From the NCBI RefSeq assembly GCF_902779965.1, contig NZ_CACZDK010000004.1, positions 186,001 through 250,000 on the forward strand: 64,000 nucleotides of DNA. Direction: 5' to 3'. The notes beneath the pieces were generated by a model that made no database searches, was not told the origin of the DNA, and saw only the letters and a list, made by a program, of their open reading frames with translations. Below, piece after piece: positions 11,642 to 15,733 of this stretch (within the stretch, counting starts at the first letter, position 1; each line of letters begins with the position of its first letter). Source of the stretch: Fibrobacter succinogenes (GTDB taxonomy: Bacteria; Fibrobacterota; Fibrobacteria; Fibrobacterales; Fibrobacteraceae). A program made the position numbers and the translations under genes.

Positions 11642-14185
11642 ATGAATCAAGAAACACCCGATACTACTCTAGGTTTATCTAACGTCAATCACCTAGAACG
11701 ACTTTATGACGGCTGGTTCCTGGATTACGCCAGCTATGTGATTTTGGACCGTGCAGTCCCGTATTTTGAAGATGGACTGAAGCCTGTCCAGCGCCGTATT
11801 TTGCATTCCATGTTCGAAAACCACGATGGTCGTTACCAGAAGGTAGCAACGATTGTCGGTCGAACGATGGCTTACCACCCGCATGGTGACGCCTCCATCG
11901 GCGATGCTCTTGTGGGCCTCGGTCAGAAGAATTTGCTCATCGACACCCAGGGTAACTGGGGCAACCCCTACACGGGCGACCGCGCTGCCGCCCCCCGTTA
12001 TATCGAAGGCCGCCTCACGCCGTTCGCTGTTGATGTCGTGTTCAACCCCGAAACAACGGAATGGATCCCGAGTTACGATGGCCGTAGCGAAGAACCGGTC
12101 ACGCTCCCGGTCAAGTTCCCGTTGCTTTTGGCTCAGGGCGTCGATGGTATCGCAGTCGGTCTTTCGACTTCCATCCTCCCCCACAACTTCCGCGAACTCT
12201 GCGAGGCTAGCATCGCCTGTTTGCGCGGCAAGAAGTTTACGCTTTACCCGGACTTTTTCACGGGCGGCATTATCGACGTGTCGGACTACAACGACGGTCA
12301 ACGCGGGGGCAAGGTCAAGGTCCGCGCGAAGATTGAAAAGGTCGATAACAAGACGCTCGCCATCCGCGAAATCCCGTACGGCACCACGACCGTGAGCTTG
12401 ATTGAAAGCATTGTCAAGGCAAACGACAAGGGCAAAATCAAAATCAAGCACGTGGACGACAACACGAGCCAGGGCGTCGAAATTCTCGTACACTTGCAGC
12501 CGGGGACGGACCCGCAGGTGGCCATTGACGCGCTTTACGCCTTCACGGACTGCGAAAAGTCGCTTTCGCCGTGCACATGCGTCATTATTGACAAGCACCC
12601 GAAATTCGTGGGCGTCTCGGATATTCTCAAGCTGAACACGGAACATACCGTGAAACTTTTGGAATGGGAACTGGCCAACGAGCTCAAGCACCTCGAAGAC
12701 AAGTGGCACATGACCACGCTCGAAAAGATCTTTATCGAGAAGGAAGTCTACGAGGTCATCAAGAAGGCCAAGGACCGTGAACAAATTATCCGTCTCGTTC
12801 GCGAAGGACTTACGCCGTACCTCAAGCGCCTGCACCGCAAAGAAGTTACAGACGAAGAAATCGGCAAGCTCATCGAAATCCCGATCCGCCGTATAAGCCA
12901 TTACGACCGCGAAAAGGCCGACCAGCTCTTGAAGGAACTGGAAGAGAGCATCGCAACCTGCAAGTACAACCAGGAACATATCATTGACTACGCCGTGAAC
13001 CACTTCAAGAACATCTTGAAGAAGTATGGCGAAGGCAAGGAACGTCGCACGCAGATTGCCGAATTCGGTAAGGTGAACGCTGTACACGTGGCGCTTGCAA
13101 ACCAGAAGCTCTACGTGAACCGCAAGGAAGGTTTCGTGGGTACCGGCATGAAGAAGGAAGAATACCTCTTCGACGTGTCCGAATACGATGACTTGATCGT
13201 GTTCAAGGCCGACGGTAGCTTCAAAGTCGTGAAGGTCAGCGACAAGGACTTTGTCGGTAAGGACATCATCCTCGTTGAAAAGTTCAACAAGGACGACGAA
13301 CGCCATATCTATAACGTCATCCACCAGGATGGCAAGGACGGCTACGCTTACATCAAGCGCTTCAACGTCGGTGGCGTGACCCGCGACAAGGATTACTACA
13401 TGGGCAAGAACAAGCCCGGTAGCAAGATTCTTTACATGTCGAGCAACATGAACGGCGAAGCCGAAGTCGTGGAAGTCATCTTGAAGCCGCGTCCGCGTAT
13501 CAAGCTGAACTTTGAAGTGGACTTTAGCGAAGTCGAAGTCAAGGGCCGTGGCGCACTCGGCAATATCGTTTCGAAGTACCCGGTCAAGACGGTCAAGAGA
13601 CTCCGCAAGGGCGTTTCGACGCTTGGCGCAAGAGTGCTTTACTTCGATGCTCCGAGCGGTATCGTCTCGACGCAGAAGAAGGGCGATTGCCTCGGTGAAT
13701 TTGGCGAAAACGACAAGTTGCTCATCATCAAGCAAGATGGTAGCGCACGCGTGCACAACATGGCAGACCCGATTCTCGTGGGTTCGAACATCAAGTATCT
13801 GCACAAGTACGACCCCGCACAGGTCTTTACGGTACTTTACTTCGAAGGCTCGAATTTCAACTACATGGTCAAGCGCTTCAACCTCGAAGGCTGCCCCATG
13901 ACGACGGAATTCAGCGTGGTCTCTGACCACAAGGACACGAAGCTCATCGAGCTCTTTGCAACAGATGACGCCCGCGAACTGATGGAATACCAGGTGGGTC
14001 GCGAAGTCCAGAAGGAAGAACTTGACTTGACGGAAATTGCGGAAGTCAAGGGCTACAAGGCTCTCGGCAGCAAGTTCACCGCCAAGAAGATCAAGCGCGT
14101 GAGCCGCATTTCGCCGGCAGACCCGTTTAGCGACGGAAGTGGCGAAGGCGACGCAAGCGAAAGCGAAGACCCGAGCTTGTTCTAG
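11642..14185 (+). CDS. parC: DNA topoisomerase IV subunit A
   Basis: 847 aa type IIA topoisomerase A subunit, which cuts and rejoins DNA; with ParE it decatenates daughter chromosomes. The N-terminal breakage-reunion domain has DGLKPVQRRIL, the HPHGD motif and AAPRYIEGRL with catalytic Tyr120. A long coiled segment follows (about 390-450), and the C-terminal half contains the beta-pinwheel repeats. An acidic Ser/Glu-rich tail ends the protein. The partner parE lies about 38 kb away on the same strand. Codon use is strongly GC-rich and biased, as expected for a well-expressed housekeeping gene; this creates a long but false antisense frame. ParC rather than GyrA is chosen because the paired B subunit is ParE-like. 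Confidence 0.93.
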   Translation: MNQETPDTTLGLSNVNHLERLYDGWFLDYASYVILDRAVPYFEDGLKPVQRRILHSMFENHDGRYQKVATIVGRTMAYHPHGDASIGDALVGLGQKNLLIDTQGNWGNPYTGDRAAAPRYIEGRLTPFAVDVVFNPETTEWIPSYDGRSEEPVTLPVKFPLLLAQGVDGIAVGLSTSILPHNFRELCEASIACLRGKKFTLYPDFFTGGIIDVSDYNDGQRGGKVKVRAKIEKVDNKTLAIREIPYGTTTVSLIESIVKANDKGKIKIKHVDDNTSQGVEILVHLQPGTDPQVAIDALYAFTDCEKSLSPCTCVIIDKHPKFVGVSDILKLNTEHTVKLLEWELANELKHLEDKWHMTTLEKIFIEKEVYEVIKKAKDREQIIRLVREGLTPYLKRLHRKEVTDEEIGKLIEIPIRRISHYDREKADQLLKELEESIATCKYNQEHIIDYAVNHFKNILKKYGEGKERRTQIAEFGKVNAVHVALANQKLYVNRKEGFVGTGMKKEEYLFDVSEYDDLIVFKADGSFKVVKVSDKDFVGKDIILVEKFNKDDERHIYNVIHQDGKDGYAYIKRFNVGGVTRDKDYYMGKNKPGSKILYMSSNMNGEAEVVEVILKPRPRIKLNFEVDFSEVEVKGRGALGNIVSKYPVKTVKRLRKGVSTLGARVLYFDAPSGIVSTQKKGDCLGEFGENDKLLIIKQDGSARVHNMADPILVGSNIKYLHKYDPAQVFTVLYFEGSNFNYMVKRFNLEGCPMTTEFSVVSDHKDTKLIELFATDDARELMEYQVGREVQKEELDLTEIAEVKGYKALGSKFTAKKIKRVSRISPADPFSDGSGEGDASESEDPSLF

Positions 14186-14376: not shown

Positions 14377-15007
14377 CTATTCATTAGAATCTCGATCCAC
14401 CCACCCCAAATAAACTTTCAAATAAAATCGCGGTCCCCTTTTAAGTTCGTATGTATTCGTAACCACATAAGCATACGATGCAGAAACTCTTAAAACCATA
14501 AAATTAATGTTCAAATCAGCATGTGGTCTGAAATAGAATTTACGACCGGGACTAAAAGCAAACCAATCCATCTTATAACCAGCACTCACCGATACAGGAA
14601 TCCAACCCTTCCAAAAGAAATATTCCACGGTTGGATTCAACAAGAACAAAGTCCAAAAAAAGCTATTCATCAGAATATCGTCATCATGGCGGCCTTCACC
14701 ACGTAACACAACAAACGGAAGGAAAGCAAAAGAAACAAACGAGTTTATCCCTGATACTCTATGGTCAAAATGACTCGTATCACTTCTATCCGAAATCATG
14801 TGGTAACTAAATACATCAGCATTCAGATAAAGATTTTTCCCAACCGGAATTCCACCTTCCAAGGTCATACTAAAATCTTCATTATAAACAGCTTTATCAT
14901 TGACATGATCAGTCCACCCTGCACCTTCACCTCCAAAAAAAAAATCCATCAGCAAAAGCATGGGAACAGAAGAATATCAAACAACATAGAATCACTATTC
15001 GACGCAT
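14377..15007 (-). CDS. predicted outer-membrane beta-barrel protein, out of frame at a 10-base homopolymer
   Basis: GGAGG precedes an ATG at 15007 that opens a clear signal peptide (MRRIVILCCLIFFCSHAFA). After Asp-Gly comes a run of ten T (minus strand). With ten T the frame hits a stop within three codons; with nine it would join the 194-residue frame that follows (GGEGAGWTDH...). That frame shows alternating hydrophobic and polar strands rich in Tyr/Phe and an N-terminal Gly-rich start typical of small outer-membrane barrels. The joined protein would be 209 aa. The likely reading is a slipped-strand ON/OFF switch currently OFF, or else a sequencing error in the run. An internal ATG could give a leaderless product, but it lacks a signal peptide. 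Confidence 0.7.
14935..14944 (-). repeat. 10-base homopolymer tract (A on plus strand, T in the gene)
   Basis: The longest single-base run noticed in a coding context here. It sits exactly at the signal-peptide/mature junction of the barrel gene, and one base less restores the frame. Confidence 0.8.
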
Positions 15008-15043
15008 AAATCATACCCTCCAAAATTTCAATACAAGATACTG

Positions 15044-15733
15044 TTAAAGAATATCTCTGTTCAAGAGTTCGCCGTGACTGAGTTCCAAACGGCGGAAGGG
15101 GCTGTTCAGATAAAAGTCCGGATTATGCGTTGCCATGAGGATGGTCGTTCCGCGGGCATTGATTTCCTTGAAAATGCAGAAGACTTCTTCAGCGTTTTTC
15201 GGGTCCAAGTTACCGGTCGGTTCGTCAGCCAAAAGCAAATACGGGTTGTGCACCATCGCACGGGCAATCGCCACGCGCTGCTGTTCACCGCCCGAGAGCG
15301 TGTAAGGCATTGCAAAGCGCTTTTGGCTAATGCCCACGAGCGCAAGCGCATCAAAAACCGCACCGTTAATCTTGTTACTCGGAGTCCCCACAATGCGGAG
15401 TGCAAGCGCTACATTTTCAAAAACGTTCCGGTCCGGCAAAAGTTTAAAGTCCTGGAAAATAATTCCCATCTTGCGGCGGAGCGCCTGGATTCTATCGTCC
15501 GGAGTATTCTTGCTATCGTACAGAACATTGTCCGAGAACTTGACCATCACCTGGCCGCCACGCAATTCATCCGGACGTTCGTCCATATAAATTAAGCGCA
15601 AAAGCGTTGATTTTCCAGCGCCAGAATGCCCCGTCAAGAAAACAAACTCGCCCTTGTTTATACGGAAGGTGACGTTGTTCAACGCCTTCCAGTTGGCTTC
15701 GTAAGATTTCGTGACGTGGGTAAAATGAATCAT
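15044..15733 (-). CDS. ftsE: cell-division ABC transporter ATPase FtsE
   Basis: 229 aa ABC ATPase with Walker [10 protein letters not shown], signature [15 protein letters not shown], Walker [13 protein letters not shown] and the switch His in MATHNPD. The opening [18 protein letters not shown] and the strong FtsE pattern after Walker A ([11 protein letters not shown]) separate it from LolD. FtsEX couples ATP use to activation of cell-wall hydrolases at the septum. No ftsX lies beside it: downstream is the barrel gene, upstream a SurA-like gene with only a 1-base gap. It is probably expressed with the chaperone genes. Confidence 0.88.

Follow-up and report, generated by a model that had tools for sequence, protein, structure and literature searches.

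The window, a 64,000-nucleotide stretch of a Fibrobacter succinogenes contig, carries on its minus strand a small gene in which a run of ten T directly follows the region coding for a signal peptide and its cleavage site. The gene lies between ftsE and the gene for a topoisomerase subunit A, an order that is kept in 6/6 genomes, namely the window copy and the five close Fibrobacter relatives that together make up our orthologue set. The features of the locus are as follows.

15044..15733, minus strand: FtsE-like ABC-transporter ATPase (PF00005), upstream; a conserved neighbour in the six genomes
15017..15021, minus strand: GGAGG, Shine-Dalgarno-like, read from the sequence and kept in 5/5 orthologues
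14948..15007, minus strand: start codon and signal peptide MRRIVILCCLIFFCSHAFA, followed by D (from translation; n-region RR, hydrophobic core, AFA cleavage motif)
14935..14944, minus strand: T10 homopolymer (A10 on the plus strand); nine T would be in frame
14927..15007, minus strand: product of the assembled sequence, truncated at 26 codons: MRRIVILCCLIFFCSHAFADGFFFWR, then TGA (from translation)
14377..14961, minus strand: post-tract frame of 194 codons, predicted to encode the mature domain of an exported protein that is restricted to the Fibrobacteraceae; its internal ATG is unsupported as a start
11642..14185, plus strand: DNA gyrase/topoisomerase IV subunit A (PF00521), convergent; the same neighbour at the five orthologous loci

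On the minus strand, GGAGG (15021-15017) is followed after a gap of 9 nt by the ATG at 15007, and the frame from this ATG, MRRIVILCCLIFFCSHAFADG, opens with a signal peptide of textbook type. By inspection of the window copy and the orthologues, RR, a hydrophobic core and AFA ahead of D make up a Sec signal peptide with a signal peptidase I site. The order is then ATG, MRRIVILCCLIFFCSHAFA, DG and T10, after which the frame runs through FFFWR to a stop and gives a product of 26 aa. Nine T from ATG 15007 would instead read into the 194-codon open reading frame at 14377-14961, as happens in the orthologues with nine. The ribosome site and signal peptide proposed in the preliminary description are thus borne out, and its coordinates and arithmetic, by which ten T give a stop and nine T join the leader to the 194-residue frame, are right. 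ATG 14961 was considered as the true start and rejected, since no ribosome site is visible ahead of it and its use would drop the signal peptide common to every close orthologue.

Because of the signal peptide, the product is best described as a predicted exported protein, and it belongs to an unnamed family of the Fibrobacteraceae. Among the genomes sampled, the family occurs in 24 of Fibrobacter and in one sister genus within the Fibrobacteraceae, and it is absent from all other genera of the phylum that were covered. Searches of Pfam, NCBIfam and PDB sequences with the protein gave no family match, and an AlphaFold model built from the six closest, near-identical copies had a pLDDT of 29 and was unusable. 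The C-terminal half has a strand-like alternation by eye, and residues 84-102 are hydrophobic enough to form a membrane helix. The earlier characterization of the protein as barrel-like is not supported, given the lack of a family or structure match, the low model confidence and the hydrophobic segment, and a location at the cell surface is putative.

Tract length varies across the orthologue set. The window copy has T10, whereas two relatives, G019 (MAG SRR12081298_bin.88) and G068 (RGIG10017), have T9 and an in-frame product of 212 aa; for G019, identity with the open reading frame of the window copy is 93%. A third relative, G062 (RUG14562), has T8 and is out of frame, with a product of 46 aa and a shifted frame that stays open for 192 codons. 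In the other two the run is interrupted as TTC TTT TTT (TTCTTTTTT) and the gene is in frame, encoding 212 aa in G006 (RGIG5926) and 206 aa in G101 (RUG12208). Pure tracts are therefore 10, 9, 9 and 8 nt long in four genomes, which are different species-level genomes and not isolates of one strain, and the gene is in frame only at nine; the two out-of-frame tracts (2/4) depart from nine in opposite directions. A signal peptide is present in 5/5 close orthologues, and as none of the five carries the gene without it, the phase-variation reading stands within this set. Taken together, the variation in length, the restriction of the open frame to nine T and the lack of any other frame break in the six copies go beyond chance.

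The frame downstream of the tract has been preserved in the copies that cannot reach it. For the codons after the tract, dN/dS of the window copy against the orthologues is 0.12-0.29, changes private to the window number 4 synonymous and 2 nonsynonymous, and none of the six copies has any other frame-breaking change. The T8 copy of G062 is more diverged (0.15 to 0.20), yet its post-tract frame is open. The post-tract frame of the window copy is thus under purifying selection, and since it is both intact and constrained, the OFF state of this copy is recent or reversible. The 60 nt ahead of the tract are 100% identical at the DNA level in the window, G019 and G062, despite gene bodies that diverge locally by as much as 23%. 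Because the 60 nt are identical while the bodies diverge, the alleles are mosaic, and tract length has changed on a single 5' background.

The T run itself calls for a more guarded assessment. Its length carries no significance of its own: A/T runs of 10 are rarer in the genome than expected, with 19 observed against ~136 under a first-order Markov model built on the window. The run encodes the F-F-F of a conserved F-x-F-G motif, so it need not exist for the sake of switching, and G006 and G101 break it with the synonymous codon TTC. Similar tracts in paralogues, which the preliminary description had named as a point to look for, did not turn up, as no equivalent T run was found in the paralogues. 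One paralogue in the window genome (L011, G000:C6) has a T7 run elsewhere and is in frame; its copy in the genome G093 (L057, G093:C1) is almost identical to it in DNA but has T8, and the frame of that copy is broken in the C-terminal half. The pair points to slippage as a general event in a family that is dispensable.

Since the run is eight, nine or ten T long among related Fibrobacter, the gene looks as though it is switched on and off by copying slips. The model builds on what was observed or computed, that is, the reading frames, the differences in tract length between related genomes, the constrained and intact downstream frame and the conserved synteny. In this model, nine T just after the signal-peptide codons would be the ON state and slippage to eight or ten T the OFF state, and the T10 form of the window would yield only a leader peptide of 26 residues. 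Slipped-strand mispairing during replication would produce the length changes, these would revert, and one population would then hold both ON and OFF states. Variable display of an envelope protein could be useful, for instance against phages or in attachment, and switches of this kind are usually found in envelope genes (PMC3711429). We regard ON/OFF switching of this exported-protein gene by slips in the T run as a plausible candidate and as the reading toward which we lean.

Three features of slipped-strand phase-variable genes are present here: a repeat within the frame, out at T10, in at T9 and out at T8; a repeat length that varies among close relatives; and OFF copies that are otherwise intact, with purifying selection on the window copy. 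A feature that is typical of such genes, if not strictly defining, is absent, in that the repeat is not kept across the family, being interrupted in G006 and G101 and missing from the paralogues. With the three features present and the typical one absent, we file the gene as a candidate phase-variable gene. Of the slipped-strand ON/OFF arrangement claimed at the outset, both the frameshift and the ON/OFF logic are borne out, and the T10 and T8 OFF alleles among the four pure tracts fit it. The claim that the tract is specially placed is doubtful because of its F-x-F-G coding, the TTC codon in two orthologues, the paralogues without a run and the T7/T8 frameshift at another position in a paralogue.

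Several of these observations are also what would be expected from an ordinary frameshift in a dispensable accessory gene, with T10 and T8 as loss-of-function alleles that arose recently in a decaying gene and T runs acting as indel hot spots. The patchy distribution of the family (23 of 80 Fibrobacter genomes), the paralogue broken at a different T run, the two orthologues that are in frame without a pure run and the lack of enrichment of long A/T runs all favour decay, and we give this explanation appreciable weight while holding it to be less probable than switching. It is countered by the otherwise intact and constrained state of the T10 and T8 copies, by the occurrence of both a +1 and a -1 change, and by the position of the two breaks, both of which fall inside a tract of 8-10 nt and nowhere else in ~560 nt. 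A further alternative is recoding, in which RNA polymerase slippage or ribosomal frameshifting would give some full-length protein from the T10 and T8 alleles and leave the gene leaky rather than OFF. Runs of eight or more A or T are known slippage sites (PMC3711429), and in this genus dnaX has an A10 that never varies, the two alternative frames being closed by stops; however, the shift required is +1 for T10, -1 for T8 and zero for four orthologues, which does not amount to a single conserved programmed event. The differing directions make conserved programmed recoding very unlikely, and recoding of any kind is in our judgement very improbable as the main explanation, while RNA polymerase slippage on the run could possibly add some leakiness to the switch.

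The ten T could also be an assembly or consensus error for a source tract of nine. In Illumina contigs at 10x coverage, ~1% of protein sequences were affected by homopolymer errors (PMC3277595). The assembly that contains the window is a draft in 76 contigs, and the named orthologues are MAGs. As a control for homopolymer calling we took the equally long A10 run of the housekeeping gene dnaX; this run is called as exactly ten in 30/30 Fibrobacter loci, the window genome among them. These assemblies therefore report ten-nucleotide runs consistently, and an artefact is unlikely. Several more long runs inside genes of the window genome, namely A10 in two other genes, G10, G9 and G8, keep their genes in frame, and an independent assembly, that of G062, has T8 at the same site. 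We consider an error improbable on these grounds.

Phase variation by slipped-strand repeats has been studied mainly in pathogens. In oipA/hopH and related outer membrane proteins of Helicobacter pylori and in the opa genes of Neisseria, the repeat lies in or next to the signal-peptide codons and the OFF state gives a short leader. The Fibrobacter gene resembles them in the placement of the repeat in an envelope-protein gene and in an OFF state that would yield only a short leader. It differs in that its repeat is one mononucleotide run of T in a single orthologue group, whereas those systems use CT dinucleotide or CTCTT pentanucleotide repeats in multi-copy families with many switches. The homopolymer contingency loci of Neisseria and Campylobacter share with it mononucleotide runs within envelope-gene frames that are polymorphic in length between strains. 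Their tracts are largely poly-G/C, unlike the Fibrobacter run, which is poly-T in a genome where A/T runs are not enriched and is described here from assemblies; the Neisseria homopolymer loci have been validated by deep sequencing (PMC5084427). In Mycoplasma hominis the gene of the vaa adhesin, a surface protein, has a poly-A tract in its 5' end; the gene is ON with eight A, and slipped-strand mispairing is presumed to occur at 10^-3 to 10^-4 (PMC524362). Both the vaa tract and the Fibrobacter T run sit at the 5' end of the gene, and the T run would act as a length switch in the manner of vaa, but the phylum, the protein and the ON length differ, and phase variation is established for vaa whereas the Fibrobacter gene is a candidate. 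It is plausible that the Fibrobacter case joins, as a candidate, this already known class of phase-variable genes. For Fibrobacter, a search of the open-access literature found no paper that treats this kind of phase variation in its title or abstract, and incidental mentions alone. If the reading is true, a fibre-degrading gut symbiont hedges its surface, which bears on phage predation and on attachment. Annotation pipelines may take this gene for a pseudogene, or may place its start at a false internal ATG and so lose the signal peptide.

The dnaX site is the nearest likeness within the genus, as there too ten A/T in a row lie within a coding frame. It differs in that its tract is invariant and in frame and would serve a second product rather than ON/OFF variation. 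At the dnaX loci (L023 and L101, in the region of G000:C12:28126-28575, and L102-L130) the ten A are followed by GTAACTGA or GTAGCTGA, and stops lie within 4-6 codons in both other frames. With this arrangement, the A10 has the appearance of a conserved site at which slippage or frameshifting would yield a short, gamma-like product.

Other homopolymer loci occur in the window genome. An acyltransferase-3 gene that adjoins a polysaccharide flippase gene (L026/L075, G000:C18:48278-48295) is broken at T10G8, and its homologues L090 and L091 read through without a break. A lipoprotein gene (L059/L131, G000:C1:11393-11401) is broken at G9, and a homologue without the run (L133) has a continuous frame of ~238 codons. 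We count these two envelope-type genes broken at homopolymers as support for a dedicated switch. A wider reading, in which Fibrobacter, a gut fibre degrader, would possess a small envelope repertoire of homopolymer contingency genes (the exported protein at T8-T10, the acyltransferase at T10G8 and lipoproteins at G9 and G10) and thus a pathogen-style phase variation, perhaps directed against phages, is put forward tentatively and seems to us rather doubtful. A second lipoprotein gene (L061/L093, G000:C3:55966-55975) has a G10 run in frame shortly past the lipobox, and the run is absent from relatives in seven genomes. In a small gene elsewhere (L083, G000:C28:44102-44111), the ATG is followed by G10 and an immediate stop, and the shifted frame is open for ~89 codons.
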